From NCBI GenBank assembly GCA_002205965.3, contig NADL03000070.1, forward strand, positions 186,001-250,000: 64,000 bases of DNA. The letters are read 5' to 3'. The notes under the pieces are model-generated. The model was not told the DNA's origin. It made no database searches and saw nothing but the letters and a program-made list of their open reading frames with translations. Of this stretch, positions 16,221 through 62,334 are shown in pieces. The position numbers were made by a program, and so were the translations under genes. Every line of letters starts with the position of its first letter. Within the stretch, counting starts at the first letter, position 1. The stretch comes from Kappaphycus alvarezii (taxonomy: Eukaryota > Rhodophyta > Florideophyceae > Gigartinales > Solieriaceae).

Positions 16221-16229
16221 GGAGTTTTC

Positions 16230-28537: not shown

Positions 28538-30150
28538 TTATTCGTATCGAGCCACGTACAGTAGCCCTCCACCTGCACTCAAAGCCGTAACGAGAGAAAC
28601 TGGAGTGGTAAAGTCATCTACCAAAGACTTTCCATCCTGAGTCTCTGTGTGGATGAGCTCCAGAAGTGCGACGCAATTTTTAATCGCCGCAAACGGCAAT
28701 ATAATCGGCAAAGTTCTTTTCTGATAGCAAGCGGCATTTTCGGATAAAATGACTACTTCTGTTCTTGCTGGTAAATCCTTCTTGAGTCGAATCATTCCGC
28801 CTCAATAATTGAAGCAACTGCCAAACCGTCCTGCTGAGTCTCTTTTTGGACAACATGGTCATAGAAAAGCATTGATAAGTGCTCCGGACCGTCATAAAGG
28901 CATGCTAAATCGTACACTGATGGAAAGTAGAAACTAAGATTCCGTGCGAGCTGATTTCCTTCTTTCCAAAGAAGTCTCTTGTTTTCTCCCTGAATCGAAG
29001 GAGTTCATATTTAATCTCGTAGTCTGCCAGTAGAACGGCCCTATTATGTCTACGCTGCAGTGAGATTTCGCCAAGCAAATTATCTAGAGCCACCTGCTGT
29101 GCAATAACGCTTTGAACGTCTGCCATGTATTGCATCCATTTTATCCTGACGTCATCGACGAATGTTATAGCATCCATTCTGCCTACGGGCAGGTAAGACT
29201 CAAGCTTGTTACATAAACTCAATGTTGCTAGGCAAACATTGCATAAAACATCTAGAGCTGTCAGTATCATAGTTTGGTTTCCCTTAAAGCAAAAGAACTG
29301 TCTTGAAATCCACCGGAATCTTTGTTTATGTGGGACTCAATGAAGTCCAGGTTGAGAAAGTATTGAACCCCTTCTATTTGCACTTCGAAATTTACATGGC
29401 GCTCCAAAGGAATGAACAGCTTTACAAGCCTGTTGAAGTCAACAATTGTGTCGTTCACTAGCCCTCCAACAATATAGTCCACTGCAGATTTTCGTCGCGA
29501 CTCGCGAGCTGTAAGGGCTGAACATGCTGCTGAGAAAGAAGAACGCCCAACTGCTTGAAAGTTCTGCTCGTCGCAAGCAGTCTTATAATCATTAAATATT
29601 GTGCTCCTGTTTTTCTTTCTGGTTATGGAGGCTAAAATGTATTCCCTTCCCTGGCACAGAAATTTCCTAGTTCCCCACTATAACAGTTGAATGTTCGGCC
29701 TTGACATATGAAACTCACCACGAATCTTATTTGTTCTTCCGAAACTCGTGAAACACGCCTTACGTCTGACTACAATCTCCCACTTACCAATATGGAGTCA
29801 TATTGCCAGTCTAAATGGGACTTTGCATAAGTCCGAGCGACTATCGGGTTCGACTCCAAGCGAATCCGCCCGTCTTCACTCCCTGCAAGATTATCCTTGC
29901 CTCTATTCCCTTCAACAATCTCGTCGTCAGCGTCAGCTCCTAGTTTCGATAAGAAATAATTTAGGTTATCCCGCTTCAAAGAAGCACAAAGGAAGGCATG
30001 CAATACACGACGTTCAATTGATACTCTCCTTGTGGGCTTCGAAGCCGGTGCAACATCTTCAGTTATGCTCGGAAAACCACGTCGTTTGTGAAAAGGTCCA
30101 ATTCTGTTTTCGCATTACTCCCGTGGATCTGCTGGGTAGAACATTTCGCA
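28538..30150 (-). pseudogene. Broken DDE-like transposase
   Basis: Reading leftward on the minus strand, the N-terminal part (30110-29770) contains SIERRVLHAFLCASLKRDNLNYFL. After a frame change there is YKTACDEQNFQAVGRSSFSAA and LTARESRRKSAVDYIVGGLV (29640-29440). After another shift comes LADYEIKYELLRFREKTRDFFGKK (about 29030-28950). The end reads YDGPEHLSMLFYDHVVQKETQQDGLAV, VVILSENAACYQ and IHTETQDGKSLVDDF (28880-28600). From memory, this order (acidic strand, SDNA-type box, HTETQDGKS box) belongs to a transposase-like family common in oomycetes, brown algae and other protists. The box here is SEN, not SDN, so a likely catalytic Asp is lost. It has at least three frame changes and ends abruptly at 28538. 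Confidence 0.5.
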
Positions 30151-30817
30151 AACTCGAGAAATCAACGTTTTTAAAATAGCATCACACCGTGCTAAATCAC
30201 GTGGGGTGGCACTACGAGGGCGATTTTCAGAAATAACATCAACTTTTTTGCTACCAAGCGCTGATTCAGAGTTTCAGAAGGCCTAGATTACAGCCGCATT
30301 GTATTTGCTGGTATTGAGCGATCACCTATTGTTTGGAGAATATAAATTCAATACTGCGCTTCATGATTTGCATTGGTCCAGGAAGCGGTTGTTGGACGCA
30401 CAGGCTGGGATTGAATGTAAGGTTTGGGCAGCGATGGTAGCACCGTTGCCAATGTTGGATCTGCCATCCAGCTAGAGTAGACTGTAGATGAAATAAATAC
30501 TAGGGTGGCGATCGCCCCCGTAGTAGAGAAAAGTACACAGCATGTACACATTCCTGTCTTTATTGAGCAAGCATGTACGTCTACTCGCAAGCCAGCTGGA
30601 TTATTTTGTCATCCACCAGCTTTTCAACTTCGCCTATGAGACTGTTTCCAGGAATAAGCACGCTTGGAAATACCACTTGCAGAGTTCCCGGGATCTGTGT
30701 CGATCGAAAAATTTACTTTTACCATATACAAGTGTTGGGGTCAACATCTCGGCGCTATCGTAGCAAAAACACACGTTTGTTCACGTCCGGTCCACCTTTG
30801 CTTGGATCGGACTTCGA
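30151..30817. other. Intergenic stretch with the first GATC palindrome
   Basis: No gene is credible here. It contains GGCGATCGCC at 30507-30516 and marks the left limit of the palindrome-rich block. Confidence 0.4.
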
Positions 30818-31662
30818 CTAGGGAATGACTTCTTTCTTCTGAAGGGCGTTTTTGTACCTTCTCTCAACAGCATTGTACTTACCAGAATCCCTTTGAAGTC
30901 CAATTACAGCTATGCCATCCAGACAACTTCTTCCAGGAACGATTGTACAAGATCTCTCACTTCCCTCAACGACTGAATCGTTTCCTTCACAGACGTAAGT
31001 GCCCAGTATGCGTAATAGTGTAGTCTTACCGTGGGTACCATACCACTCAATCATTTCAATCCGATCGGACTCTGATGATATTCCAGGACTTCGCATATAA
31101 CTTGAAGACTCGGAAACATTACGTAGAACTGGCTTTCACCAAGAGACGCGTTCTGCGTCATGCCGAAAGAGGGGTGAAAGGTGACAGATTCTTCGGCCTC
31201 GTTCAGCGTACACATTTGTTGGATAAAATGGGCGATCTCCTCAAATTCGTCCAAGTCACAGTCCGTGTATGCCATTACGGAAGACGCAACAGCCTGCCCT
31301 TGAAATGCGAAATTCCCCGCCTCTCCTTCTATTTCTTCTCCCACCATCCGCCCAGGGCGACGCACGGGCTTCTGGAGCCGAATACTTATCCTTGATCGCA
31401 AAAAAGTCATCACGCGTTCCACAATATGCTCGTCAGTTTCAAACTCCCTCCCTTGAAGTCGGTCTATGTTGCTAATTACCTGCCATTGTAACTGCAAAAC
31501 TTCATAAAACATTCGGGAATGGCATTTTCGCATCTTCTTAACTTGGAACAGAATGTGAGGAAGAGGAGGAAAGCTATCGGCGTTTCGTTTCAGAGATCTC
31601 GGACCTGCCTCATCGGGATCTTCCCAATCCCAGTCATCATCATCTTCATGACATCCTCCCAT
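30818..31662 (-). CDS. Unknown acidic protein, possibly spliced or frameshifted
   Basis: The gene starts at ATG 31662 with a very acidic run (GGCHEDDDDWDWEDPDEAG) and reads about 200 codons to a stop at 31051. It includes a basic patch (RLQKPVRRPGR) and two helical stretches (YEVLQLQWQVISNIDRL and DLDEFEEIAHFIQQM). The next frame, 31096-30818, overlaps it and ends in KYNAVERRYKNALQKKE, which also looks coded. So the gene either continues through an intron or carries one indel near 31080. No domain is recognised. It belongs to the palindrome-rich block (TCCGATCGGA at 31060-31069 lies in the overlap). A separate minus ORF lies just upstream. Confidence 0.45.
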
Positions 31663-31701
31663 GCTACCAACACACTATCCGCTAGGAGGAACCTATGCCC
31701 G

Positions 31702-32049
31702 TCATGACAAGGGAGGGTTTTCATTCTCAGTACCCTCCAAGCATTCTGACTCTGCCACTCGAAGGCAGTGGTCGGGTAGAAACTCCACTGAATCAGTCAC
31801 GGGTGGATAGTTCTTATACGCCACGTACTTGATCAACCCAACACCGAGAACTCCTGGGCGGGTATCCCCGCCTTCACATTCAATAATACTGGCCTTCCAC
31901 CACACAACAGACGGAGTATCTTCATCATCCATTTCCCAAAGCACCTCAATTGAATCCTTTATCTTAGGTAGGGCCTTGCGTTGCGAGCAGATCCGTGGAT
32001 CCGGGTAATCGGCGGAGGATAATGTGGGCATGGCGTTTGATTGAGACAT
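31702..32049 (-). CDS. Small protein with Tudor/chromo-like barrel signature
   Basis: From ATG 32049 (MSQSNAMPTL) the frame reads about 115 codons to TGA at 31702. The centre has IEVLWEMDDEDTPSVVWWKASII, then GVGLIKYVAYKNY and SVEFLPDHCLRV. A strand with acidic turn, WW-K-A and a Y-x-x-Y strand is the kind of pattern seen in Tudor-like or SH3-like barrels that bind modified histones. This is inference from pattern only. The frame is open further upstream to 32316, but that extension is Cys/Phe-rich and antiparallel to a better plus-strand gene, so I chose the inner ATG. It shares its frame with the 31662 ORF but three stops in about 40 bp separate them, which could be an intron. Confidence 0.45.
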   Translation of the reverse strand: MSQSNAMPTLSSADYPDPRICSQRKALPKIKDSIEVLWEMDDEDTPSVVWWKASIIECEGGDTRPGVLGVGLIKYVAYKNYPPVTDSVEFLPDHCLRVAESECLEGTENENPPLS

Positions 32050-33657
32050 GGCGAACGAAACTTCTCCAAATTTCCCATCATCGTGTGCTTTGTCCTGGTT
32101 CTTTTCGATGATGCAGACTGAGTTGCGGTCCAACATGGCATCGATTGAGTCCCGAATCGTTTCCAAAATCAAGACGCTTGAGGAGAAGCAAGGAGGAGCC
32201 CTTTCGAACCTCGATGAGTTGAAGTCTCGATCGAGACATTTCGAAAAGAACACGAAGTCATGCGCGCAGGAGAGAAACCGCCTGTTTGGAAGGAAGAAGG
32301 TTCTTGACTGGTTCACTTTTCATGATGGCCTCATTGAAGAGTCGGATGCACTGTCCAAGGTTGCTTCAGTGGCCATACCCTCACATATTGTCGCGATCGC
32401 GACTACAGACGGTGGGAAAATAGATGAGCAATGTGTGTTCGCTACAAGTTTGATTCTGTTTGGGAAAGCATCAACGAGCAAAAGAGAAGTTTTGAATGTA
32501 GGTTTTGGGTTGCGACACAGTGAGTTGGGGCTGTTTCTCGTCCTCATCCTGCTTTATGATCTCAATTTGAACAAATTTGGGATTTCAGAGGAGACCAGTC
32601 TACCGCGATCGCGGCCAAACCTCCATCTACGAGGAAGAAGACCAACCAGAAGAAGAAGTAAGGAAGCCTTGTCTTCCAAGCTTGTTGCTGTCTCGCTTCA
32701 TATCGGAAAATATTGTCAAGGAAGCAGGGGTGTATTTTGCAACTGCGCCGCGTACAAGGAAAAACACGCACATACGTCGGACAGCCGGTGGGCAACGCGA
32801 GAGCATCACTCCGATCGGAGTAGGGGACAAACCTACAAACTGCGATATAGCTATTCATGGTGCGCGCAAGCTCTACAGTCTCATCATTCGTTACCTTCAT
32901 TATTGTCGTGAAACCGCTGCAGAGAATCTTGGGTACCTTCTTGTTGGCGGGTCTTCGGCAGTGTCTACTGCTAGTCAGGGTGGACTGCACATATGTTTGT
33001 CCGATCGGACAGGATCCAACATGACGTCCCTGGACGGTATCCCAGAAATGTGTCGCCATGGCGGTGATGAGAATGAAGATTCTAACACGACTGAGTATCG
33101 TGAGGGGTTGAGGAAATTGCCGGAAATGGTTATAACTGCACAGTACACAGCTGTGTTTATCCATCCGGAGGAACCAGTAGCAAAAAGGACGGTCGGAAAG
33201 AACAAGTTTTGACAAGATCAATTCACCTGGTTGAGGTTGCATTGCGATTTATGGTCGATTACTGCCGCCTGAAATCTGAGATTGCCTATTTCCGCGGTAG
33301 TGAGGGATCACTCAAATCAGTGGTTGCACTCGCCATTGTGTTCAGGGGTTTGGTGCAGCAATTTCTGGCTAAGGCCACTGGCGATCGCCAGAAAGGTGGA
33401 AGGATTTCGGTTACGGATATACCGTCGGATGCTGATGTCGTTTCCGGCTCATTGCCGTTGTCTCTCTTAATGCCTGGAGTATCTACACTGAAGCGTGCTG
33501 TGGATGGGAAGATACTTATATTAGAGATGATTATGCATCACAAAACGTGGGTACGGCGGAGGTTACTGGACCAGACGCCAGTGCTGTAGATGATGAGCAC
33601 GTTGAACCGGAGAATGAACCAATACTTCCAGCGGAGAGTATGGGTATTTTCCAACTG
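32048..33657 (+). CDS. Unknown multi-segment gene, probably spliced or frameshifted
   Basis: Four readable segments follow one another. Segment 1 (32048-32497) has a coiled coil (SIESRIVSKIKTLEEKQ). Segment 2 (about 32589-33211) has acidic IYEEEDQPEEEV, then IRYLHYCRETAAENLG and SDRTGSNMTSLDGIPEM. Segment 3 (33209-about 33430) has VVALAIVFRGLVQQFLAKA. Segment 4 (about 33430-33657) has IAVVSLNAWSIYTEA and an acidic end DDEHVEPENEP. A GTAGGT...TTTCAG intron of 91 bp (32498-32588) would join segments 1 and 2 at phase 0. The later changes have no clear splice sites and may be errors or decay. No domain is recognised. Six palindromes of 12-14 bp centred on GATC lie inside its coding frames. Confidence 0.45.
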
Positions 33658-33659
33658 TA

Positions 33660-34165
33660 ACACCCGCGTTCGCGTGTGTACTGTGACGGTATGAGGGCCT
33701 CTGCAGGTCCCCTTCATCGTAGTTTCGTAACTGCAATCTCTGCTTGCGAGCGGAGGTGCTCGTGCTCTGCATGTTGCAGGTTGAAACTGTTAGAATATGG
33801 TAGTTGTTCTCTGCGCAGGTTGTCGATCGACATGTAGTATTGTGAAGCGAAAAGGGTTTGTGCCAGTTGGAAGTGAGTAGCGTAGGGCATCGGCGACATG
33901 GCGACTGTCGATCGACATGTGCCGAAATGAAAAGAACCGCGTTGAGTGAGTGAAGTTGTGAGGCGACTGCCTCCGAGTCCCAGTAAATGCGTTTCATTCG
34001 ATGCACCTAACTGAATAACCCATACCGGAGAGATCGACCCGGTGGAATGAACGGTTGAATTTGATCTTGAGGTAAAGAACCAAGTTTGGATCATCCCATG
34101 CCCGTGGCTGGCGCGCTCGCGCAAGAGAGCGTGTGTGGGGCTGCATCAAAAGCACGTAATGAATT
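33660..34165. other. Intergenic region with two TGTCGATCGACA palindromes
   Basis: No credible gene. It holds TGTCGATCGACA at 33821-33832 and again at 33906-33917, 85 bp apart, upstream of the intact ORF at 34166. The repeated identical 12-mer is a candidate regulatory site. Confidence 0.45.
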
Positions 34166-35131
34166 ATGTCATCGTGCATCATTCAGTCAAGTGGTACTGG
34201 CAAGTCAGCCGCCTATAAGCAGTCAAGTCTGTCAGGTGGTATTGACAAGTTGACCAAAGATTTAGTTCAAAGCGTCACGTTAGGCGGATCCGCCTCTTCT
34301 AATGAACAAGTTTCGTCGGGTGTTACTGGAGCCAAGGCCGTGAAAAGTGTACCGATTCCTGCAGGTATTCCTGTGAGTCCTCACCATGGTGAGGACAACG
34401 AGATCAAAGGCGGATCCGCCAAAACCGTTGTAGCCCCATGGAACGTTGGCCCAGTTCTTCAAGATATGAAGGAGTTGTCAGAAGCTGGGCGAATAACTAA
34501 GTTGCAGGCTGAGGGGGTCATGTTTTGTCCAGACCATTCCGATGAATTCAAGGCAAGCGTCGCAAAGCTTGGCAGACCGCTGTTGCCATGTGAAATAGGT
34601 ACTAGGCAGGATCCCGCCTTTGACAGACGCCCTCAATGTGCGCACAAGAGAACGTCAGCTTACCAGGCGTTATTGGTGCAGGCTGGCTTTGCTGAGCCAA
34701 CGACAAACGGGCTCAATTCCAATCCGACCTTCTATGCGGAATGGGCGGATGTGCGGTCGATGGAATCAGTACCAACTCGCCCTGATCGTGGTTTGATACG
34801 ATGCCACATACCCTCCAAGATTGACAATCGGATGATGAGCGGTAGGCATGATTGGTGTCCGACACCGGTTGTTGTGCGAAGTTTTGAACATTTCTCGTCT
34901 ATCGCTCGTGAAAGTCGACGCCACGACATGGCCGCGTTCGATGAGATGTCGAAAGACGACCACAGTACGACCTTGGACTTATGGTCCCAGTACATTCGAA
35001 TGTATTCCTGGGGATTGCTTTCGCCCACATTGCAGAGCGATCGCACTCCTTACAAGGACGTGTTGGATGCTCACTATCTAGATGCGACCGACGCTCTGCT
35101 TTCTAATTTCGACGGAAGGAGAATGGCATAG
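34166..35131 (+). CDS. Intact ORF of unknown function, 321 aa
   Basis: A complete frame runs from ATG 34166 (MSSCIIQSSGTGKS) to TAG 35131 with ordinary composition and no internal break, the longest intact frame in the palindrome-rich block. The first ~90 residues are Ser/Gly/Lys-rich and probably disordered (GGIDKLTKDL, GGSASSNEQ, KGGSAKTV). Residues from about 90 on are better ordered: VLQDMKELSEAGRITKLQAEG, FCPDHSDEFKASVAKLG, then a His/Trp/Cys-containing part and ending LDATDALLSNFDG. Two palindromes encode both GGSA motifs (34282-34295 and 34409-34420). I do not recognise a domain. Company with transposase genes suggests an accessory protein of a mobile element. Confidence 0.55.
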   Translation: MSSCIIQSSGTGKSAAYKQSSLSGGIDKLTKDLVQSVTLGGSASSNEQVSSGVTGAKAVKSVPIPAGIPVSPHHGEDNEIKGGSAKTVVAPWNVGPVLQDMKELSEAGRITKLQAEGVMFCPDHSDEFKASVAKLGRPLLPCEIGTRQDPAFDRRPQCAHKRTSAYQALLVQAGFAEPTTNGLNSNPTFYAEWADVRSMESVPTRPDRGLIRCHIPSKIDNRMMSGRHDWCPTPVVVRSFEHFSSIARESRRHDMAAFDEMSKDDHSTTLDLWSQYIRMYSWGLLSPTLQSDRTPYKDVLDAHYLDATDALLSNFDGRRMA

Positions 35132-36895
35132 CGACGTGAGCTATTACCCAACGGGATCCCGTTGATACTAATGTGACTTCCGTGGTCAGACAAAACACCT
35201 GGTAGATCATAGAAACGCCTTATACATGCAATCACCTTCACACAGACGGGATCCCGTCTTTTCTGAAAACGATAAGTTGTGTTTATGCAAGCGATGCAAT
35301 CACGTATATTGGGATGTTAATAGCAAATATCTGAAGAATGTTAGAACTTTAGTTTGGTCTAATCCAAATGATGTGAACGCCGGCATACTCCCAACAGGGT
35401 ACGGTTTAAAGTGAATAATATCTGCGAATCACACTATCCACAAACAGCAGTAGGTATCATACTACCTAGTTTACACACATTATTTTTCATGCATATTGAA
35501 ACCCTTCCAAAATCCTCCTGCACACTTCACTCGTAACTTGACTTGGGCGTTGCGGGATCCCGCTGCAGATTTCAAGTACCACAAGGAACGTGCACATCGT
35601 ACTTTTTGGATGGGATCCCATTCTTTTTCAACCTCCTATCATTTCCTGCGCACCCGACCAATGTTCCAAGCGTTGCTGAGTGATATATTTTGCGGGATCC
35701 CGCCCCTTTGCAACACACTACAAGAACAATGCAGCTTCCTGGAACGAAAAAGGATCCCGTTTCCAGATATTTCTGAGTGAGATATTTTGCGGGATCCCGC
35801 TATCTCTGCCACCAACAACAGCTATAATGCAACTTCCTCGTTTCAGAAGGGATCCCGTTTCTTGCGCTTTTTCATTTCTTATCAGAACACCATGTTGAGT
35901 GTAGTGGTATCTCACTACTACCATGATTACTTGGAGAAGCCTGTAGCATGATCTAGGCATGCCGATGACGTTTAAATACCTAGAACATACCCCGGATATG
36001 AGGTAAAAGGATGCAATGGCGATCACCACTTTCAGCACCGGAGCATTTTTAAACTGTACTATTGGATTAAACACACAGCCATTGCGCAACAACATCAACT
36101 AATAGTTTCTTTGATAAATCCTACGATCGTCAGAATATTGAACTAACCCTTCAGTGGACCTACGAGACTGTAGACAATACTGGGGTTGATCTTTGCCAAT
36201 GAATGTATCGATTGGAGTGTAGAGTAGCAGTCATTATTCTTAGCCAAGTACGTTTGGAGTGGAATCTAGCACTCATAGCTCTGCAAGTAACATTTGATTA
36301 CCACACTGGAAGGGTACCCGATCGGGTGCCATACCGCAGCAAGGGTTTTCCATACATGGAACCGCAATTTCTATTGTTACAGGGCACTGATGTTAGTGCC
36401 AGGCACCTCCACCCAATCTCCACTCCCTGTGTCATGGGATTAAATACCTGCTGCCATAAAAAGACCCGATCGGGACAAAGGAACTCAGCACAGGCAACAT
36501 GAAAGAATAGCTGACATGACGATAGAACATACTAGCGTATCCGATGGGACTTTCACTGCTTCCAGAGGGGGGTCTTCCAACAATGTAACCATCATTACAA
36601 ACGGAAACTTACAGAAATGAGGGTCATACATGGGTGGATCCACCCAATGGAAAACCAGAGCAGAAAAAGGCGGGCCATTTTCGAAAATCGCACACTGTTA
36701 TTGCGCAGTTGGTCCCAGAAGCTACGTGATCAGCTCGAACCAACCTTGCCTTGACCAACTACATTATATTCATATCACCATCCCGTAATAACCCCTCGAA
36801 TGCCTTGATGTCTTTGTGTAGTGTCGATCGACACACATCATGACCATTGACTGAATTTCCGATGTCCTGAAAACGATCGTATCCGGCAGAGGACA
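35132..36895. other. Intergenic region dense in GGATCC palindromes
   Basis: No gene is supported. The stretch carries nine perfect 12-16 bp palindromes (GCGGGATCCCGC three times, plus others listed under the palindrome set), near-palindromes at about 35752 and 35848, and a ~97-bp tandem duplication at 35681-35876. Confidence 0.5.
35681..35876 (+). repeat. ~97-bp imperfect tandem duplication with two palindromes per unit
   Basis: Both units begin AGTGA-ATATTTTGCGGGATCCC, contain A-AATGCA-CTTCCT, and then a GGATCCCGTTTC half-palindrome. The second palindrome of each unit is imperfect and differs between units. Units start at about 35681 and 35777. Confidence 0.7.
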
Positions 36896-39800
36896 ATATG
36901 GAAGAAGCAGCGCCGCATTCAAGATGGAGAATCTCGTGAAGACGTCCCAGAAAAAATCAGCAGGAGAAGACCGCTCCCATCCACATGGCTCTAGGTACTA
37001 AGAGACTCGACTACGGAATCAGGACACGCAGAATTGAATCTACTTGATATCTCAGTGGAGCCTGCGCAAGATCAGAATCCGCATGAACAGGAGCCCCACT
37101 TTCCCTCTCTACTCGGAGGGTCAGCCAACGCAAGCAATAATCGATCGACTCATGCAAACACACCTGATCCGGTTGATGATGATCTGTGTCCAACTGGGGG
37201 AATATGAATTCCGACGGAGGGGATGATGTCAACCCGAGAGTTGTGCCGTCGATCGACGAGGTAATTGCTCATTTGCAACCACTCGTACGTCGAACTTTGC
37301 AGGACATAGAAGAATTGGAAATACAGGATGGGGATGATGACAATGTCGTACACGGGGATGACCCATTACGGAATGCATTTTACAACCTCCTCCCACCCAG
37401 TGACGAGGAAGACATGCAGCAGATGGACACAACCTCTCAAGACACATCTGCTGAAAAGCTACTATCGATACCTAAGCGGGTAATCAACCCATGGCCTAAA
37501 ATGCTTGGCTTTTTATTGGTATGTGGGAGTGTACGTTTCACAGTTGAACAATACGAGGAAGTCCGTGACATCATTCGTTGAATTGAACCTTCCTGTCAGA
37601 TACCTTCTTATTCTACTGTTCAAAGGGCGATTTTTTCGTACCTCCGATACATATGCTTTGTTCCTAATTCAATGTACCAGTTAACTGTCGATTTGTTGAA
37701 GCAGAAAAGCTTTTTACCACGCTTACAGTTACGAGCCATCCGAGGCGGCGATCGCCGCATGAATCGTACCACTTTGCCAGTGTGAATTGTACTTCCTTCA
37801 GATTGGGAAAAGTATGATGTCCTCGCTCTACCAATTTTCAACTAGAACTACGATATATTGGGGCGCAAGGATTCCATTGAATCAATCATGGTAGTGAGAG
37901 ATCGTATAACAGTGATAAATCCATGTGAATCAATTATTGTCATGCACGAAAACCAACTCGTCAAGGCGTATTGTGGTGCAAAAGTCAAGGCTCATGTTGA
38001 GAAGGAATGCCGCCGTGTACGTGATATAGCTGTGTGGCCTGATATGTGGAGAGGGGATGCGTGGGATCGAAGAGGAATGTACCGCAAAGTGCGAGGGACG
38101 CAGTGGCAAGGCCGTCAACCGGGGAACGTAGTATTGTGGTAATGTTGAGAACGTGCAAGCCTCTTAAGAAAGAGCTCTCCAAGACTGTTACCACATCAGA
38201 TCGGAATCCCGATCGTGGCAGGAGGAATGTGAATGGAAGGAGGAAACGAGGTCGCCCCCGGAACGTACAACTTCCTGATTCCAATCAATTCGTATTACAC
38301 GGCGATATATGCTGTCAGCTGCGATCGCAGCGCGATGACAATGTTGCAGCTGTTATTGTCTATAGACATTGGATTCCTATGGATGGTGTCACCCATACTC
38401 GTATGGTGTTCATGCGACGCCCACAGATGGAAGTCAATGTGCCCGCACATGATCTTCTGGAATCTCATATCATTTCCTCGCATGACGTTGTTTGTGACAT
38501 AACGTCTTCACTGTCCTGTTGGTGTAAAGTTGGATGAAGCAAGTGGTAGATCTTCCAGGAAGGTGCCAACATCTCCACCAAGAGGTTATTTGGATGACGG
38601 TACGCTGTATATCGTGTATAGATCACTGCAGTACTGTGATGACTTCAAACAAGGATCACTTCAGTCGTCACTGAAGGCTAGCGGATGTTATTTCCTTCCT
38701 ATGAACTTTCTCCCGAGGGATAGAACGACTCGTGCGGCAGTGCGGGTGATCAGCTTCACACCCCATGGTATGAGCTCGAACCAAATCCTAGTTTGCATCA
38801 TACCAGATCTGGTACAAGCATGCTCGAAGGGTATTTAGGGCAGACTACCAGATGGAACGCATGTCCGTATCTTTTTTGACGTGATTGGTTTTGTAGGTGA
38901 CTACCTAGAGTCCTTCGGTAGTGTAGATTTGCTGGGACATCGCGCAAATTTTCCATGCACAGAATGTTCCTTTCGTAAGAGATAAAACATTGGAATTTCA
39001 TTTGGGTACACAAATTCTGTGCATGGCTGTAATATGGCTACGCTGAGCTGTGCGGAAAGGACTTGGGCTATGAGGGAAATTGGTATTGATGCTGATGACT
39101 GCAACTACCTGGGAATGTGCGACAATCAGAGGGTATGTAACGAGAACTCTCCTCCACCAACGTTTGCTGAGGAAATGGCAAAGTCGGATCGGACATTCCC
39201 CTTACAATCGATGGCCATCATGTCGTTCCAGGGATTTTTGATCCCTACAGGGGCAACGTAATTGCGCCAGATCATCTCCTATCTGGTGTTGCACAGGATC
39301 TACTCGATTATTGCTTTGCGCTACTTCCAAATAAAGAGACCCGGAAGGATATTGAGTTTAATATGCAATGCACTAACGGAGAATGGATTGTGCAGACAGG
39401 GCTCCGTGTACAGTTCCAACAACAAAGGCTTGAATAATATGAGGCTCTTAGACATTTCCTGTGTTCTATGTGTGCCTTTGGGTGTATTCAAGACCTGTGT
39501 AAGAGACGCTAAAGAAAGCCGCGGGATCCCGCAGCGAGTTGTCAACGCCCTCGAAAACCTCCATAAGTTGGTTTGTTTGACTTTTTGGTAGCTCATTGAA
39601 GGACTACACAGCCCTGAAACAGTCAAGAACTTTCATACTGGCAGCCGTGATCAATATTTTTGAGATCTCCAAAAGCTTGCGCAACAGTATCCTGACGATG
39701 TACATGACCTGTGCAAACGTCTTTTCGAAGCAAAGAAGCTGTTGGACAAGCCCAATTTGCATAGTATCCTGGAGTTGGACTACCACACCATCCCCGCGTT

Positions 39801-40868
39801 TAGTCATACTCGCCAAATCATGGAGTTGGTATTGTAAAATGCACATCAGCCTCTGAAGAGATGCATCACGAGCGGCAACCATTTGAACGGAAATTAGGGC
39901 TGTTGGTCATTGTCTGGCTAATGATTGGCAAGGCCACGTAGCTCTACTGCGGAGTTATTCTCACACTGAGTCTTACACAACATCATCTGATGATACGTAC
40001 TATATGGAATTCGCTGAGGGTCGTTTGATGTTTGGAGAAGAAACAATGTCTATGCTTATGCATAAAGAGGACGCTCTCAGTGTCCGTGAATGCGCAAGGA
40101 ACATCGTCAATTTGGCTTTGAGAGGCCCTGTTTTGAAGCGCATGGGTTCAGGGGAAAAGACATGCAGGCTTCATACAGGTGTAGAATGGTGGAATAGTTT
40201 TGGTGAATTGAGAGATGAATATGCCAAAGATGTTCCGATCGGAATGAACGCGGCGATAGACATATGGCACGCAGTGGAAACGGCAAATGGAATATATGGA
40301 AAGTACATGGAATAGTGCGGAGATGTGAGTGCAATCTCAGTCACTCTTGCAAAAACATGCAAAAATTATCAAGGAAGTGAAGTACGACGGAGGCAAGTAT
40401 AAGGGCCGTTCGGCCCCTCACCACTGTTTGTACTCTGTATGCGTTGCACAAGCCCCTCTTAGTTCAACGACCTGGGCAAAAGGCGACCGTATCTTGCTCC
40501 CTTGTACAGGAGATGATGTCGTGGTGAAATATTTTGCAGTGGTCGCGATTCTGGGCTCAGATACAAGTGACATCATTCCGGAAGGAACATGGACCGTCGT
40601 GGTAAGGTGCAAAATATCAAAGCGTGGTGCCTTGTCCACGGAGTTTCCCCAGCCGGGATCCCACCTAACGCCCGAAACGTTTTCACTCCTCAAGCTTACA
40701 CGGAATGTACGTCGAATTGCTATTGTTCATGCATGTGGGTTTTATCTACTGAACAAATGTGCTCGAGACCCTACTGGATATCGATTTGATCATGGTGGAA
40801 CAATTTTCAGCGGTGAAACTTTCTACTACATCAATAGAAAAGGCGTGTTCCCACCAAGAATCGGATAG
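36896..40868 (+). pseudogene. Large transposase, KDZ/CACTA-like, broken
   Basis: One protein of about 1,200 residues can be followed on the plus strand through several frames. It starts with an acidic N-terminus (37187-37480: EELEIQDGDDDN, PPSDEEDMQQMD), then INPWPKMLGFLLVCGSVRF and VLPSDWEKYDVLALP. An AT-hook-like KRGRPRN lies at about 38255. The core has YCDDFKQGS (38630), GFVGDYLESFGSVDLLGHRA and PCTECSF (38885-38980), FDPYRGNVIAPDHLL (39240), DKPNLHSILELDYHTIP (39745) and NAHQPLKR (39837). The end has GETFYYINRKGVFPPR (40815-40860). From memory, this order belongs to large eukaryotic transposases with these CTxC and AHQPLKR boxes; the exact family name is uncertain. Seven or more stops, all explicable by C-to-T, and some one-base shifts disable it. 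Confidence 0.6.
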
Positions 40869-42400
40869 GAAATGGACAGGACTATACCCTAGGGCGACCA
40901 GATCTGGTCCAAGGGTACCGGCGGCAGTAACTGTGTCTTCCGGATGAGTACATATATATGAATTTTATAGCAACGTATTAAACAATGTCTAGTGAACACC
41001 AGAGGAAACAATGTAAGCAGCGCAACCTTCACTGCAGAGGAAATGGATCCATTGCCAACGTCGATGTTTTTACTACTGCGGCAGCACCTAATACAGTGCG
41101 TCAAGCTGTGACTTCAGCACCGTCGAAGCACCAAATGATGTACCTGACAACTCCGAAATTGCCACTGACGGAGCAAAGCTCGTACTGCTGATCGCGGGAA
41201 AATCGCCACTACGTGAGCACCGCTTGAAATGCTAACATCAGTGAATCCCATGTTCCCTCAACGAAGGTTGTCATACTGCCACTTAGCATATTCATTGTCC
41301 CTGTATCATAGAAAGCAGAGTCTACAGCACTAAAATCATCACTGCCAGTGGCACTGAATTCTATCTTCCTACCAGTGAATAAGACATTTCAGTAGTAGTA
41401 GAAATGCTGATAAACAGCATTACATGTGGTTTTGAGCAGCAATAGACTGTGATGTTTGCCAGCAGTACATATATTGCTGCATGCAATAATGAAAACAGCG
41501 CTGAGAGGATTTTTCAGCACTGCTTTCATTGTTCATGGAACAGTAAATTCGCTGTTTACGAACACCAAATTCTATGTTCCATGAAACAAAAAAGTACTGT
41601 TCCATGAGTAATGATTGTGTTGACGGTTAGTGAGTGACATATCTCGTTAACAGCAGTACAAAATACTGTTCAACGAACAGCAAATCAGTGGTTCGTAATT
41701 TCTGCCGCACGAAGGAAATTCCTTCGTAGTGAGCATCTCTAAATAGTACAACCTTTCGGGACCCTTGGAGGTTGTGTGTGAGATTTTGAGGCCTAATCGC
41801 GTAAAGAAGCGCAGAGAGAGAACCAATAGACTCATTTTCTTCATTATCGGTGTCTCAATCTCTTTCTTCATTGTAGCGCACACGTTTGATGAAGTTGCGA
41901 GGAGATCACAAGTGATTCTGCATGTTGTCGTTGGTGTGGATGAAGAGGTCTCTGGCCGAGGCAGGATTGGATTTGTGAGTTAAATTCATTGAAGCGTTGT
42001 GCACTTTTGAGTACAAAAAGATGATATCAACGAGGGATGTTGGCTAGGGGGGCGGCTTGAAAGGTGATCGGGGCCAAGGTGATCACGAGGAGGGAAGGGA
42101 AATGGGAACGACGTGAAGAAGATTGAAAATGATAGGACTCTTATCTGGCTGAAACTTACCAGAGTACGAGGGTTTCGTAATATCAAGATGATTGAGTCTG
42201 AAACATTTCTTTCAGAGGTTGGAATCCAATATCTATGGGAATGCCCTTTCTGGGCGCGAAATGCTTATATAAATGCCTTACATGACAAATATCTCTACAT
42301 CCACCAATCACTACAACTTAGAGGAGCAAGATTCATGTTTTGTGGTTCAAGAGCTTTCTAAGGGTTCCAAAATGAGTATCAAGGCTCAAATACTTGTATT
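40869..42400. other. Flank of the large transposase
   Basis: No gene is supported. The last palindromes of the set are at 40896 and 41042. Frames at 41765-41983 (plus) and 41647-41883 (minus) overlap each other and show no motif; the plus one has a short hydrophobic run only. The region may contain the right end of the element. Confidence 0.35.
41532..41690. repeat. Cluster of inverted AACAG/CTGTT motifs
   Basis: TCATGGAACAGTA at 41533-41545 is matched by its exact reverse complement at 41595-41607. Nearby lie CTGTTTACGAACA and GCTGTTCAACGAACAGC, another short inverted repeat. Such dense inverted motifs are common near the ends of DNA transposons. Confidence 0.55.
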
Positions 42401-45400
42401 TTACCGTATTGCACATTCCTCAGAGAAGATGTCCCTTGACTCGCAAATCGTGTGTTAAATCACAAAAAATTGTAAGAAAAGAAAAGAGTTGGATGCTATC
42501 GCGGATGCTTTATATCGAGCAATTTTCGTGTTGTGATTTCGTCGGCATGGAGAAGCGCAATCTATGAACGTTGGAAAAAGTTTTGAGTAACTATAAAGTA
42601 CACGGATAGAACATTCTTATAAGGATTTTAATGAATACAGATAGAAGGTAAAGGAACTTGGATGAGGGAACCGGAATTAGTTTTGCTATGCCTGAGAACT
42701 TGCTTTGGTTTCGTCCATATGTTGGAGAATCCAGCCTCGTTTTGGCTAGAAAAAACTTAGGGGAATAGAATTAGTTACTTGTTGTAGAATACGTTAAGCC
42801 AGATAATGCGACTGTAACCACATCACGTAGTGCAGATCATGACCGAGACACAGCTTCGTAATTGATGTTTGCTGGGACAAGAAATAATTCCGCAAATATT
42901 CATGGCAAGTCTTTCGTAATTGAAAAGACATGAATACAATTTATCACGGCTGTTTATTTCTTAAAATGAAGAACGGATATATTTTAGAAATTGGTAAGCT
43001 TGTCGTAATATCCTCTTGCCAGCATCGTATTAATTTTAAAGTGCTGAAAAGCCGTTTCAAGTGTTCTTTGATAGTCTATTTGAAGGGAAGGACGTCTCTT
43101 GAAATCTTGGGGGGATTCACGGCAAACTAAAAGCTGGATAGGCTTACGTTAAATACTGCTTTCAATGTTTTGATAAAATATCATCGTTGCACATTCCTTT
43201 TTATTCTGAGGAAGCCCTTTATAAAAAGAAATACAAAGGGATGCGCTTTACCAGCTGGTAGGATTTTTCTCTACTATCGGACTTTTGCTGGTTGAAAAGG
43301 TATAATATCGCCTATTCTTGTTGAAATTTAGGAATAGCCCTAGATTTAGTTTCAGTAGCTCCATTGAAGCGCTAATATGGTAAATGTTGAATTAAAAATA
43401 CGTGAAGCGCTTCTAAAAGAAAGATTTTACTTCGAAATCGCATAAGTGCGGGGTATTAGACGATAAAGGGAACCATCAGATAGCTCGTTCTCCTAATTAA
43501 ATTGCTTTGCTTAGCTTTGAAAGGACCGGTGATGTCGAGTAAACACTGGAATAGCTCTCTCCTATTATTTTGTGCGTAATTATCACGGAAATTGGACTTC
43601 ATTACCACCCATGCGATCCTTTGCATAGATAAACGTTTAATTCTAGACCAGAAAATGACAGTGCAGATGTTGAATATATCATTAGTCACCATTTATACTC
43701 TCTCGAGCCTTTTGGATTAAAATGATATCTTGGACAATGGATAGGGCTTTTAGGTTCATATTACAATACGGGCCGGTTTAAACAACAAAAATACTTTACA
43801 TACTTATGTGTGGATTCATTCGTGAAAGTACTGCGTATCTCGTTGCGAAATATAGAGCCCAGAAAATTGTGACCAAGCGCCACCTTAGTACATGCGGATG
43901 AAGCAGAGAGACTGCGAGCTCTTCGTTGAGAGCTTCAGGGCAGTAGGATTACTTTCTTTAATGATTATGGTGGTAATCATGCAGAAAATATATATGTGGA
44001 AAGAGATGAAGGGCGAACAGCCATGATCCATTTATTGAATGAGCGCCATTACAATAAAGGAATCGAGGGCACTCATCATGTTTCCGATGCTTTTACTTCG
44101 ATCTTCACTCCTGTACCGAGAATCTCAGCGGAATTTCAGATATTTTTCGGATTTTGGAATTAAATGAACCTACTTGTCGCTCACGGGACAACCAGGTAAT
44201 CTAAAACATTGAATCAAGATCATATCGCTTCACCGGGACGTGATAATAAATGACCCGTCTATTTTGCAGAAATTAGTTGGCGAGGGCGGCAGCTTCCTCA
44301 TTGGTTTGACTTTTATCAAGCTCCTGTATACTAATACCTTCCAAGAATCAGCTTTGGGATGCATGAAGCAGTATAAGCGGCAAAAATCGCGAATTCAGAC
44401 ATAATGTACATCAATATTTAGAAAAGATGAATTATTACACTTTTAAGGACCAAATTAAATCATCAGAACTCATCTGAATATTACTTTTCTATTCCTATGA
44501 AACTTTGCATACCTCTTCAACAACATGTCTCTTTATTGCTCTAAAGTCTTGGAAGTCGGGAACAAATTGTGCCTCACAGAGGCTAATGTGTATGTAGGTA
44601 CTTACCACTGATAACATCGTATGTAGAATAAAAAGAGGGTGAGCTATTTTCTGACAAGAAAAAATGAGAGGCAATTTAATAGTTCTATTATTCAGATGAC
44701 CGGTTTTTCACGAAAAAAAAAATTTACTGAATCTAGATAAGACACTGCATACTTCTTATAGATATTTTGACGAATAGTATAATTTTGGAGTTTTGCCTCA
44801 TATGGGGACAAAATGAGCCGGAGTCGAGGATAAGACTATTGCGGTATAAATATAGACACTAATAGGGATATTACTTGATTATATGGTATCGTGTTTAGCA
44901 TTTAATACTTCCTGGGGCAATATAGATCATACACACGTGAATATCAAGACTTCAGCTTCAATTCAATAATATGTTCCTAATTCCTCTTTCTCCAACTGAA
45001 TACTTTATTAATTGAGTATTTATATAGCTGTCTATCATTTGTTGAGAAAAATGGTAAGTAAGAAAAATTCAGCAATAGGTTGTACTCTTTATAGGCAAAA
45101 TATTTATTCATTTTGGTTCAAAAGCACGGTTTAAATATTAATTGAAATCCATCTAAATCGTTACAAAAAATTTATTCTTAACTTTTTCCCCTGAAAATAG
45201 AACTTCTATCTACTTAATAGCATATTACGATTTTGCAGACAGCTTAAGTCGAAAGTTTTCAGCTCCCGTGGACATGTTGGTACTTTTTTGTTTTTCAAAA
45301 TATTTAGAGTGGTTGTAATGGATTCCAACTAAATACCGAAATAAAAATATTATATGTTTCATTCCTATCATATTTGATTGGAAAAAAGCATAAGTTTTGC

Positions 45401-48301: not shown

Positions 48302-48339
48302 TATGAAGTCATAGTCATAATTATGACTATGACTTCATA
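48302..48339. repeat. 38-bp perfect palindrome
   Basis: The arm TATGAAGTCATAGTCATAA is followed without spacer by its exact reverse complement, centred between 48320 and 48321. It lies 120 bp inside the left end of the hAT element and could form a cruciform or bind transposase. Confidence 0.9.
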
Positions 48340-48439
48340 TTTTAATGACCTAGGTAGTCATAATTATGACCAGCTGGGTCATTAATTCCGCAAAGAAATT
48401 AATTCCCCTAGTCCTGACAAGCGGAATAGTCCCGCATTG

Positions 48440-48660: not shown

Positions 48661-49308
48661 GGTTCGAACCCAAAGGAACAGGACCGCCTGAATTCTTTCA
48701 ACAGCCCCTGGCCAATGCACCCACTTGCAGACAACCGTCAATGCGCCCAGTCAAAGTTCTCAACAATCGACCCGTGGTCGAATGGTTAAGCCTAAGTCCT
48801 GGGATTCTGGATAGTCATATCCTTTCTCGCAGCAACTTAGTTGGAGCGGTGATTTAATTTCCTGATTCCGAGATCGTTCTCAGATTACTGTCATAACGTA
48901 GTACAAGGAAGTTGTTATCTAGATGACAACTAAGAAGCACCAGAGATTGGAGTGCTATCATAGAATATGTCGCCAGAAGGGCAGCTACATTTTTAACCTG
49001 TTTTGGTGAGTAAAAGGCTGTTTTTTGAATATTTTTACGGATTCACTACAACAAACACACACTTTATAAACTGGAGTCCATTAAACATGTGAAAGAGAAT
49101 CTTGAACTTACCTGAAAGGGTAAGGTGAATTATTTATATGGATATCGATAAACATCTATTTTTACAGGGATTGGGACAGAAAAGCAGTGTATATGTGTAT
49201 AAACCGAAGCATATATCGTCAAATTAGCGAGCGCTATTTAATTTTCCGCAGGTAGCGTGACGTATAATAGGTATTAAAAAGACTTCAAATAAAGAATTTA
49301 TAACATTC

Positions 49309-51683
49309 TTAACATAGCGGATCTAATTCAATTCGTCTGGAAGATGCTTTTGTCTCTTCAGATAGTCTCCAACTTTCAAAAGACATTCGGTAAGGCCAGC
49401 TGTCAGCCGGGATCTCTTTTGGATCTAATTGATCCAGCAACGCTAAAAACTCTTTCAGATGATTGGAGGAAGAATTAGGAGTAAAAACAACTCGTGCGAC
49501 TTGAGATAGGATTGGGAATGTGCCTTCATACTTCTTCCAAAAATCAAGCTTCCATTTCTTTTGCAGAAGCCGCCATAAACTTATAAAGGTTAATTTCAGA
49601 ATCAATGGAGGCATCAACTTTATCCCCAATTTGCACATCTCATCATCTGAATCGAAACTTGATAAAACACCCTTCTTTGAATGTTCGGATGCTTTGCATT
49701 TAAAGCATCCGACCCTGACGAAACCGTGATAGTGAAGTAGTTTTCGCCAATTTTGAGATAAGCTTCACAGCAGCTGTGTCAGAAAGGGTAAGCATCAACT
49801 CCACCCAAGAAAACCTTGTGCTTCATTTTGAAATACCTGGGAGTCAGAAGAGTTGCATGAGCGCAATGCTCTGCCATTGGACACTGAAGGTTATTCTTCT
49901 TACGATCAGGATTAATTCAGATAAATCATCTACCAATCTTCGCGTCACAGAATCCATTAAATTTTGCTCCTTCTTCTTTTTAGAATTTTCAAAATTCCTG
50001 CCGAACAAATGTCCTTCAAATGCATTGTCGGGCCTACCTGAGAGCCCAACAAAGCTGTACTTTCTTCGACTGCCCTGAATAGCTCAACAATAGCTTTCAG
50101 AGATAGCTTTTCCCTAGCGGTAGGTCTATCAGCTGGACCGACACCTTTCCATGTAACATTGTCAGCATACAGTTTTTCGATGCAGATCCAAAATAGGGTT
50201 CCAAATACAAAAACCTCAACCATTGAAACAGTAGATCCCCATCTTGTCTTAACATCCAAAATTGGCCGCAATATACTCGCGTTTTTGACGAAAGCTCTGA
50301 ATAAGGTACTGTGCAGCAACTGCAGACTTCTTAAAAAACTTGACAGTCTGGCGCACTTTCATAAGTAATTCGTCAATCTTGTCTGAAATGCCTTACGAGA
50401 CGAAATCTGAAGCGAATGAGATGCACATGCAATTCGGTTCCAAGAAGATCTGAAAGTGTAGGCTGACTGTCTGATTGGTCGAGGATCTTTCAGGAACAGT
50501 ATCTGCAAGGGAGAAGTTTTCAGGCAACTGCGGCAAGGTGCATTCAGGATCAAATTGAGCTGATAATCGAATGAATCTTCGCTGAAATCCTCATTGATAT
50601 CATTGTCATCCAGTCCAGTTTCTACTTCTTCGAATACTGATTCATTGGCAGCGGCAGATTCAGTTGCCTTAAACGTAATTGCATCCCTTTCTTGCTCATA
50701 AATAGAGGCGACCTCGTGAGTTTCGTTTCCACTTTCAAGCTCTCTGATTTTCTGAGCCGCGACTCCAGCAGTACAGAATCCTCAATTTCAGCCAAAATCC
50801 CTTCCTCTTCCGACGTAAGTTCGATTTGTTTCCTCGCATTAGCAGCGCTGTCAGTGGTTATAAAGCCACTTTTTTTTCGATTCCTAATTTCTTCGTAGAT
50901 TCAAGAAGGAAGCGTGAAAGTTCCTTTCCAGTATGGCGACCAACCAGCTTAGTGCAGCATACCAAGTTTGTATGGTATCCCCATTCGCTGTCAATGAACG
51001 ATATTGTTAAAGATGAATAGGAATCATTATTTTCGGCCGTCCAAACATCTGTAGTTCCAGCTAAAATCGAACTTTTTCGAGTGTGTCTGCATTCAACTTA
51101 TCAACGAGAGCCTCGGATTTCTGTAGAAACTACGACGGCCTGACTGACATGTTGACTTTGGAGCAAATTCATCAACAATTGCCCGAAACCCCGAATCTTC
51201 AACAATAGAAAGCGGTCTTTGATTGAGAGCATCCATTCTGCGCATAACCGAATAAATTTCTTCTGACGAACCCGATTTGTTGACCTTCTGGTGAACATTT
51301 TCTTGAAGCCAGGGTTTGTCAGGCTTGATATAATAGCTGAACCCCCTTACGTTTATCGAATGACACGGAGATGTCAGTTTCTTGTGTTTGCTGTTCATGT
51401 GGCTTCGGACATTTGTGGTTCCACGTCCCAAAGCACCTACTTTCGCGCAAAGCCGACATTTAAACTTTCGCTTGTGCGGTTCATCTTTGGGGTAAACCCG
51501 TTCAAGCTGCACGAAAGAAAAGATCGGGTTGTTGGAATTTCCATCGTACGGTACGAAATGAGCAGTCGCCGGAACTGGTGAGTTTCGCACGGAGAGAGGG
51601 GCCGTTGGACCTTTTTCGCGGACCGAAGGGGGTTCTGCTTGCATTACGGGCTCAGATTGCGCATTTGCGCCCTGGGAATTCAT
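49309..51683 (-). pseudogene. hAT transposase with BED finger, broken
   Basis: The N-terminal frame (51683-51093) holds a BED-type zinc finger: FKCRLC, then TTNVRSHMNSKH (residues about 74-101), which binds DNA. RPLSIVEDSGFRAIVDEFAP follows, the family's hallmark after the finger. Shifted frames give RIACASHSLQ near 50430 and, at 50319-49957, KTRWGSTVSMVE, the C-H-x-L and TRW-ST boxes of the RNase H-like core. The last frame (49638-49309) has LDFWKKYEGTFPILSQVARVVF, the C-terminal dimerisation block. The first catalytic Asp region was not readable. Frames change at least three times and the end after the dimerisation block is unusual (NSSSNHLKEFLALL). N-terminal residues 1-40 look disordered. 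Confidence 0.8.
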
Positions 51684-52225
51684 TTGCAGCAGAAAAGGTC
51701 GTTAATTCGGCAGTTTTCGCTAAATCTTGTATATACTGGTCTTAAACGCTCTGCTCAAGTTTATTGTGGCTATTTGGATCTAGGTTCAAAACTGTGCCAT
51801 TTTGAACAATAGTATAGAATACTGTAAAATCATGACTTTTGAGGGGATCGGTGGTGGTCAGTCATAGATAATTAATTACTTTCCGGTCATGAAATTCTGA
51901 ACATATGGTAAGATGAATATCTATTCGAATAGAATAAGAATCATAATACAATCATTATTTCTCCATGTCATAGTGGTGAATTCGATAGTAGGCAGGTAAT
52001 TAATAGGTAATAGTAATAATTCTGCCATAGTGCAGTCTATTGCTCCTCGGTAATAATTTGGTAATCAAGTCATTAATTCTTTAATGACTTCAGGAAGCAA
52101 TGACTTCAGGAAGTCATTAATTCTTTATGACCCCAGGAAGTCATTAATTCCTTTGTGAGTTCATATGCACAGGTCTTAATTCTCTTATATTCCTGTCCAC
52201 CACTGTACAGAAGAAGAAGAAGACT

Positions 52226-55394: not shown

Positions 55395-55812
55395 GTGGAG
55401 AGAACCCGTGTCGCATGAATGATGGCTTCTGTTCCGTGGCGGACTCCGACGGCGAGCTGGTGAGGAAGGAAATAAGAGACGACGGTGGGTTGTGTAGACA
55501 AGCGCCGAACGACGAGGCGGCAGATGAAGCGTCAAAGAACCGTACCCATGGCGATGGGGCGGAGACTATCGCCGCGGCCTTTGGGATGCGAGTAGGGTAG
55601 CCCGGCGAAGAGATGACGGAGCTCAGTTGGGAGTCGGCCGTCCACGGCAGAGTTCACAAAGATTGTGAGCTGAGGCAGGGCGGAACGATCTGCGGTATCA
55701 CCACCTGGTGCATGGGAGAGGGATTTGAAGACGGATGGGCGGAGGCCGTCAGGGCCCGGAGAGCTGTGGTGTGGTAGGAAGGCGAGCTGACGGCGAACCT
55801 CGGCTTCCGTAG
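55395..55812 (-). pseudogene. Non-LTR retroelement copy A: RT N-terminal part
   Basis: Minus-strand reading gives TEAEVRRQLAFLPHH, SSPGPDGLRPSVFKSL, then SALPQLTIFVNSAVDGRLP, RGDSLRPIAMGTVL, RRLSTQ, LPHQLAVGVRHGTEAIIHA. These are RT blocks 1-2 (fingers) of the non-LTR family. One TGA interrupts the LRPIAMGTVL-RF stretch and would be CGA (Arg) if restored by a C-to-T change. The sequence stops being RT-like beyond 55812, where GTACTGTAC-type sequence begins, so this is the 5' truncation point. Confidence 0.7.
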
Positions 55813-56076
55813 TACTGTACTGTAAAGTAATAATTCAGAACAATTTTCTTATCTGCCGGTTGGCCTGCTGTACCACGGATTACAGGTACAGAGGACTCCC
55901 AACCTTCCCATTACTAGCAGTAAACCAAACCAATTTCCCCCCCTGTACCACGGTGACACTGCGTCATACAAAACAAGGAGGGTTCTTTTAATGTGTTTAA
56001 AAACCTGAACCATGCAGGAAGTGGGTTACAACTGGCTTGGCAATTATACGGTATCTACGCCCCGGTACAACCTTCC
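55813..56076. repeat. Non-coding, carries one arm of a large inverted repeat
   Basis: The segment 55872-55945 is matched in inverse orientation by about 61968-62040 with roughly nine of ten bases equal by eye. It includes GTACAGAGGACTCCCAACC and AGTAAACCAAACCAATT. No coding was seen. Confidence 0.65.
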
Positions 56077-57740: not shown

Positions 57741-57743
57741 AAA

Positions 57744-62330: not shown

Positions 62331-62334
62331 CGGT

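Follow-up and report, generated by a model that had tools for sequence, protein, structure and literature searches.

A DNA transposon of the red alga Kappaphycus alvarezii, located in a 64,000-nt stretch of contig NADL03000070.1 (positions 186,001 to 250,000; this whole stretch is called the window, and positions are counted from its first letter), carries a body-wide array of perfect palindromes centred on GATC, and related transposon families of the same genome carry similar arrays, although the centre differs in one family. The family of the window element is designated F1 and the related families F2, F3 and F4. Because the sites defy chance, stand at fixed positions, vary in their arms and have family-specific cores, what is kept, as judged from the sequence, is the pairing of the arms together with the family-specific core, and not the sequence of the arms. 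The presence of this trait in F1 and in its relatives points to an undescribed recognition system maintained by selection.

The initial annotation of the window had counted 27 GATC-centred perfect palindromes of 12–16 bp between positions 32224 and 41053, with CGATCG as the core of 14, GGATCC of 11 and AGATCT of two, and a listing of all window palindromes of at least 12 bp reproduced both the number and the split exactly. In the whole window 53 perfect palindromes of this length were found with any centre. The description of those in the span as all GATC-centred applies to 27 of 32, the other five being centred on AGCT, CATG (20 bp), TCGA (twice) and TATA, and the rest of the window is nearly devoid of GATC-centred ones, with a single one outside the span at 13799. 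Based on the GATC count divided by 256, 0.33 palindromes are expected for the element. When the span was shuffled 500 times with its dinucleotides preserved, a mean of 0.19 and a maximum of two were obtained vs. 26 observed (the shuffle script counts 26, not 27, with one edge palindrome dropped), by which a chance origin was rejected. Centres other than GATC gave five palindromes in the element vs. 2.31 expected; no other four-base loop came near the GATC level in F1, and hairpins overall were no denser than background.

The pairing of the sequences flanking GATC was bimodal and nearly all-or-none. Over the 70 GATCs in 32000–41200, none of the flank positions was paired at 26, one at nine, two at seven, three at one and four to six at 27, and beyond ~6 pairs the pairing was at background level. 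Across 116 GATC columns of the aligned F1 copies, the best pairing was three in 4 columns and four in 18. The arms vary between sites, as had been noted from the window alone, with 30 different inner 4-mers at the 47 F1 sites described below, and the sites are not a single expanded repeat, as a repeat search of 29000–44000 joined them only by a 97-bp tandem pair and by short chance-like pairs.

Searching the genome (a 336-Mb assembly of 884 contigs) revealed other F1 copies at five places, C134, C454, C467 (its right part lying ~6.6 kb further on), C15 and the partial C608, which are ~86–93% identical to the window copy. Alignment of four F1 copies established that the other copies do carry the palindromes at conserved positions: 47 distinct fixed-position sites, each having four or more arm pairs, were obtained, of which 27 are intact in the window copy, 33 in C454, 17 in C134 and 17 in C467, the last for a shorter stretch. 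The sites are 12–20 bp long in the F1 copies, some being longer than in the window. At the 35 sites intact in at least two copies, the inner four arm pairs differ in 0 of 35, and the damaged sites carry few changes, indicating that the copies differ by decay. Thus, 47 or more sites were probably present in the common ancestor of F1, and the present state would be the result of decay. Within the C454 copy, a nested 6.6-kb insertion with 445-bp direct repeats (98.9% identical), interpreted as a long terminal repeat (LTR) retrotransposon, contains zero GATC-centred sites and serves as a natural palindrome-free control.

Along the F1 element the 47 sites occur at one per ~254 bp, and their spacing is more even than random, with a coefficient of variation of 0.64 vs. 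0.97 (a fraction of 0.0002 of 5000 simulations was as even). Eight of the 47 are located in sequence that is protein-conserved between families, corresponding to 2.7 per kb vs. 4.05 per kb outside. The same density was not found in a sample of the genome: ten random 10-kb stretches contained seven GATC-centred palindromes in 100 kb, far sparser than the element, yet this background is above expectation. Other elements of like kind may contribute to that background excess. One F1 12-mer was found at 29 genome places, 13 of them within F1 copies (reversed-letter control, 1), and another at 22 places, 12 of them within F1 copies (control, 36). A further 12-bp palindrome, TACAGTACTGTA, is a recurrent genome motif that was seen in four contexts among the sampled stretches (window 25024, L017 8179, L018 4288 and L038 4734).

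Relatives of the element were found via the transposase exon, and all but one of them (C590) were chosen before their palindromes were examined. The families are sampled unequally: F1 is represented by four aligned copies and pieces of two others, F2 by 5.6 kb of one copy (C7), F3 by 10 kb and 3.2 kb (C749 and C34) and F4 by 10 kb and 3.1 kb (C1 and C467 at 2.24 Mb), along with 2.0 kb of C590 and 3.2 kb of C2. All four-base words with at least five occurrences were ranked as potential cores by scoring the pairing of their six flanking positions. GATC ranked first in F1 (z 14.8), in F2 (7.4) and in the decayed F4 (4.9), and GGCC ranked first in F3 (5.8), where GATC took rank 65. As controls, two background sets placed GATC at ranks 31 and 195, and the top scores in trait-free sets were 3.3 to 4.3; since these reach 4.3, F4 gives a weaker signal than any of the other three families. 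F4 has one perfect GATC site, the same in both of its copies, and the 5.6 kb of F2 embed nine GATC palindromes of up to 22 bp, with arms quite unlike those of F1 and often AT-rich. In the F3 copy C749, 14 sites combine at least four arm pairs with a core at most one letter away from GGCC, six of them being GGCC itself, and the non-self-complementary cores GACC and GTCC close three and two stems vs. 0.10 and 0.11 expected, respectively. One F3 GGCC 12-mer occurs at 15 genome places, of which four are in F3 copies, three near F3-related matches and eight elsewhere (control, 7); the three lie 126–145 bp upstream of the F3-related matches (66–67% identity), at a position unlike that in F3 itself. 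The genome also contains many diverged relatives of F3, at 63–75% DNA identity.

Individual sites were then mapped between families through protein alignments, and the F1-site/relative pairs were tabulated with one row per 12-mer and relative, so that one row can stand for several sites with an identical 12-mer. The majority of mapped positions are not the same from family to family; four of the nine F2 sites could be placed on F1, and one of these coincides with an F1 site. At least four arm pairs are kept in four of the 24 mapped pairs (two of the four being the two F3 copies), vs. 0.09 expected at 1/256. The site shared within the transposase, at 39657–39674, spans Asp-Leu-Gln codons and reads GGA-GAT-CTC-CAA in intact F1, GTA-GAT-CTA-CAA in F2 and GCA-GAC-CTG-CAA in both F3 copies. 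Its second arm pair is accordingly G-C in F1, T-A in F2 and C-G in F3: the residue before Asp changes (Gly, Val and Ala, respectively), and the third base of the synonymous Leu codon follows. As the F3 core at this site is GACC, the stem is kept there without a palindromic centre. At 39521–39532, an F4 copy has a five-pair stem around GATA, with the first pair changed from G-C in F1 to C-G in F4.

A fixed core, variable but matched arms and paired changes between families are the hallmark of stem-loops in which the loop is specific. The reading we favour, whose truth we consider evenly balanced, is that the palindromes are stem-loops with a family-specific tetraloop that are probably read by an element-encoded factor, with hairpin form, reader and benefit all being putative. 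Each stem, 4 bp or longer and largely unconstrained in sequence, would close a four-base loop, GATC in F1, F2 and F4 and GGCC, perhaps G-N-C-C, in F3; such sites would be strewn across the entire element, coding and non-coding, at about one per 250 bp, and selection would maintain the arm pairing and the loop. The likeliest reader would be a protein that binds nucleic acid with specificity for the loop; probably it is a product of the element that co-evolves with the core, and it may coat or mark the element's own single strands, either transcripts or single-stranded DNA, for instance to protect, export or un-silence them. The non-palindromic cores of F3 fit a folded strand better than a palindrome in duplex form, and the even distribution along the whole body suggests that the sites serve to coat or mark the nucleic acid of the element itself. 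More tentatively, and with somewhat less confidence than an even prospect, we propose that this transposon superfamily tags its whole body, its coding sequence too, with stem-loops whose tetraloop (GATC, GGCC and related loops) is a family-specific 'password' and whose stems drift under selection for pairing, by which an element-encoded reader may tell its own nucleic acid from that of the host and of sister families. Binding sites of an element-encoded protein, one of the roles suggested in the initial annotation, remain the leading class of explanation. The feature does belong to a mobile element, GATC is special in it, the arms vary from site to site, and the positions are conserved across copies.

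Several observations weigh against the stem-loop reading. The loop is self-complementary in F1, F2 and F4, which a one-strand loop does not need, and the F3 core is impure, with two perfect GATC palindromes vs. 0.14 expected; of three GACC or GTCC sites of C749 readable in both F3 copies, two are kept and one is broken in C34. F1 and F2 show a weak excess of other loops (AGGT 3, GAGT 3). The relative C590 shows no enrichment in its 2.0 kb, and C2, despite a 20-bp GGCC and a 14-bp GATC palindrome, shows no overall enrichment in its 3.2 kb. In the comparison between families, 20 of the 24 mapped pairs lack an intact counterpart, and double-sided change was found at only two sites. The F1 arms are not random, being 72% GC with A absent at the second position, and the inner 4-mers are partly repeated, two of the 30 kinds being used six and five times. 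Arm length and GC content are not correlated: stems rich in AT have no extra length over those rich in GC, so there is no sign of equalised stability, and thermodynamic compensation by longer AT-rich arms was dropped as evidence. Among 14 hand-chosen near-miss sites, six have one transition-type break, two G-T and four A-C on the + strand, which indicates no G-U preference, contrary to the expectation for + strand RNA. Moreover, the seven GATC sites in 100 kb of random background compare with 1.39 expected from the GATC count, an excess of about five times, and no binding domain was recognised in the element frames run against Pfam.

The same sites could be recognised as duplex, by an element protein (a regulator, nuclease or methyltransferase) that acts as a homodimer on the 4-bp palindromic core, with symmetric flanks widening the site and the array marking the whole body as self, in the manner of anti-silencing motifs. 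That both main cores, GATC and GGCC, are 4-bp palindromes fits such a protein, as do the few G-T-type near misses and the position of sites both in and out of conserved coding sequence, which favours a role at the DNA level; VANC systems, as described in PMC5735166, likewise change their motif between families. A dimer with loose arm specificity, however, needs no matching of the arms, which here match at 4–9 positions with many letters, and F3 has stems around non-palindromic cores, so we regard duplex recognition as rather unlikely. Methylation or repair at GATC, also suggested initially, would by itself account neither for the symmetry of arms that are 4 bp or longer nor for the family with GGCC as its core.

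A mutational by-product without functional selection, in which a nuclease of the element or the host cuts or nicks the core and fold-back repair perfects the flanks, is in our estimate quite improbable. Templated quasi-palindrome correction yields perfect palindromes with arbitrary arms, which counts in its favour. A repair ratchet has moreover been proposed for HIP1 sites, according to PMC4390886. The all-or-none distribution over the 116 GATC columns, however, speaks against it, selection is suggested by the even spacing and by covariation in keeping with the reading frame, the nested LTR element is free of sites, and GATC is not top-ranked in the background. The initial suggestion of a donor-genome trace, left by horizontal transfer from a genome rich in such sites, would account for sites dense in the elements and sparse in the sampled host stretches, but it found no support: in the four related families sampled from this genome the sites mostly stand at different positions and have two kinds of core, and a trace that is only passive would be lost by decay, as happens in dead copies, making this origin very improbable. 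As to chance, low complexity or a duplicated repeat, one site pair does lie in the diverged 97-bp tandem duplication and some inner arms recur, yet the shuffles and the lack of any other longer duplication joining sites in 29000–44000 leave this explanation a negligible probability.

A resemblance to the cyanobacterial HIP1 palindrome (GCGATCGC), raised in the initial annotation, holds in kind only: both involve highly over-represented GATC-core palindromes and a habit of core replacement, but HIP1, as PMC4390886 describes it, is a fixed octamer spread across whole cyanobacterial genomes and replaced by alternate HIPs in some, whereas the element sites have variable matched arms, are 12–22 bp long, are dense only in certain eukaryotic transposons and have family-specific cores. 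Instead of one fixed GC-rich palindrome, 30 inner arms at 47 sites of 12–20 bp were found in F1, and the background density and ranks given above do not amount to high over-representation across the host genome; a cognate DNA methyltransferase belongs to the HIP systems, and no methyltransferase domain was among the Pfam results for the element frames given. The VANC motifs of Arabidopsis VANDAL transposons are likewise many, short, family-specific within one transposon family and rare elsewhere, but they are described as fixed 8–9-mers, mainly non-coding and often tandem, and the term 'palindrom' is absent from the accessible text of that paper (PMC5735166); the element sites are palindromic, arm-variable, also present in conserved coding sequence (8 of 47) and include one tandem pair. 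REP/TnpAREP systems, in which, per PMC8266576, diverse palindromes are recognised as single-stranded structures by a co-evolving transposase-related protein, share diverse palindromes and a putative co-evolving reader with the element; they differ in being bacterial and in using an HUH protein, none of which was recognised in the element frames. Nearest in architecture are the packaging signals of single-stranded RNA viruses, many dispersed stem-loops with a common loop motif, and the conserved four-base centre on variable paired arms found at the F1 sites matches such a loop-specific array; the viral RNAs, however, are bound by coat proteins, and for the element no coat gene or particle is known. 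CACTA transposons carry subterminal TnpA-binding motifs in many copies, near the ends and of fixed sequence; the element sites are also many in a CACTA-ended transposon, but body-wide and with variable arms, and, where a transposase of a known Pfam family would be expected of a CACTA (EnSpm/CMC) element, the transposase pieces given had no Pfam match. Among the papers listed by the literature searches, with most subscription papers outside their reach, there was no like array in a eukaryotic transposon. As no known system matches in full, the sites are placed as a new kind, and the GATC/GGCC arrays would represent a new kind of signal with a putative function.

The element is taken as a DNA transposon with CACTA-type ends because homology begins at 30210 (CACTACGAGG) and ends at 41731 (CCTTCGTAGTG). 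CACTA/TAGTG inverted-repeat termini were found, with the left end compared in four copies and the right in three. CACTA (EnSpm/CMC) transposons produce target-site duplications of 2–3 bp; GT is common to both flanks in C134, and the flanks of the window copy and C454 mismatch, so that no convincing duplication was seen. A transposase-like protein, which we take to resemble CACTA-superfamily transposases from its motifs, occupies the right third, and a second conserved protein is encoded near 32.0–33.0 kb on the + strand; codon-position substitution ratios used for gene finding gave a weak signal only. None of the 23 open frames run against Pfam (20 belonging to these elements, in part as copies of one gene, and three elsewhere in the window) gave a match above the cut-off, a set of 5.8 billion proteins contained no homologue at E≤0.001 of the 321-aa frame, a 394-aa transposase piece or a long interspersed nuclear element (LINE)-like frame, and Rfam and tRNA scans of the window gave no matches. 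The window copy is without ~0.9 kb at 32058 and 91 bp at 38057 that are present in other copies, the 91-bp piece containing CACTACGA, like the element's own terminus. Its longest palindrome is the 20-bp CATG-centred one at 34377–34396, also present in C134 and C454. Outside the element, a 38-bp perfect palindrome at 48302–48339 is followed by a 14-bp one with the same centre sequence at 48357–48370, and frames in 15600–17900, 49300–51700 and 52200–63200 presumably encode a Ty3-type polyprotein, a hAT transposase and LINE reverse transcriptases, respectively.

Coordinates of the F1 element in the window, its genes and its palindromic sites. Sites are written arm-core-arm, have no strand (.) and come from the listing of perfect palindromes unless stated.
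Feature	Position	Strand	Remarks
Whole element, family F1	30210..41731	+	11,522 bp; ends CACTACGAGG...CCTTCGTAGTG; homology to C134 and C454 copies starts and stops here, flanks differ
Left terminal inverted repeat	30210..30230	+	CACTACGA...
Right terminal inverted repeat	41711..41731	-	Reads CACTACGAAGG on - strand
Possible accessory gene A, coding status uncertain	31051..32319	-	Two open frames, 31051-31674 and 31702-32319; 285-aa frame in C467 copy
Gene B open frame	32045..32911	+	438 residues in C454 copy; similar to family F4
321-aa open frame	34163..35131	+	Open reading frame
Transposase region, several open pieces	37183..40868	+	Local matches of ~25-80% amino-acid identity in F2, F3, F4
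GTCTC-GATC-GAGAC	32224..32237	.	
GTCGC-GATC-GCGAC	32390..32403	.	Decayed homologue in F4
CCGC-GATC-GCGG	32603..32614	.	
ACTCC-GATC-GGAGT	32808..32821	.	
TGTCC-GATC-GGACA	32998..33011	.	
CTGGC-GATC-GCCAG	33378..33391	.	
TGTC-GATC-GACA	33821..33832	.	
TGTC-GATC-GACA	33906..33917	.	
AGGCG-GATC-CGCCT	34282..34295	.	
GGCG-GATC-CGCC	34409..34420	.	
CAACGG-GATC-CCGTTG	35149..35164	.	
AGACGG-GATC-CCGTCT	35244..35259	.	
GCGG-GATC-CCGC	35552..35563	.	
ATGG-GATC-CCAT	35610..35621	.	
GCGG-GATC-CCGC	35692..35703	.	Member of diverged 97-bp tandem pair
GCGG-GATC-CCGC	35789..35800	.	Member of diverged 97-bp tandem pair
ACCC-GATC-GGGT	36316..36327	.	
TGGGTG-GATC-CACCCA	36631..36646	.	
GTGTC-GATC-GACAC	36821..36834	.	
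CGTC-GATC-GACG	37247..37258	.	
GCGGC-GATC-GCCGC	37745..37758	.	
GCTGC-GATC-GCAGC	38318..38331	.	
TACCA-GATC-TGGTA	38801..38814	.	In transposase coding sequence
GCGG-GATC-CCGC	39521..39532	.	Coding; F4 homologue pairs via other arms (TGCGC/GCGCA, core GATA)
Site decayed in window copy	39657..39674	.	Perfect 18-mer TTTTGGA-GATC-TCCAAAA in C134 and C467; F2 and F3 homologues with covarying arms
TTCC-GATC-GGAA	40233..40244	.	
GACCA-GATC-TGGTC	40896..40909	.	
AATG-GATC-CATT	41042..41053	.	Arm GGCAATG, 18 bp, in C134 and C454
20 sites perfect in another copy, decayed or missing in window	30510..40657	.	From four-copy alignment; GATC near 30510, 30702, 30906, 31595, 31863, 33306, 33965, 34032, 34342, 34610, 35039, 36021, 37143, 37166, 39187, 39664, 40657, and three in the 0.9-kb segment missing at 32058

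Short binding motifs of fixed sequence are known to build up in transposons. Body-wide sites that keep only self-complementarity and a family-specific core, and that change in pairs within coding sequence, would be a new kind of signal, implying a new reader, and, if the 'password' reading is true, a structure-based self-recognition code would exist in a transposon. Scoring each element for arm pairing at all 256 four-base centres could find such codes in other genomes.

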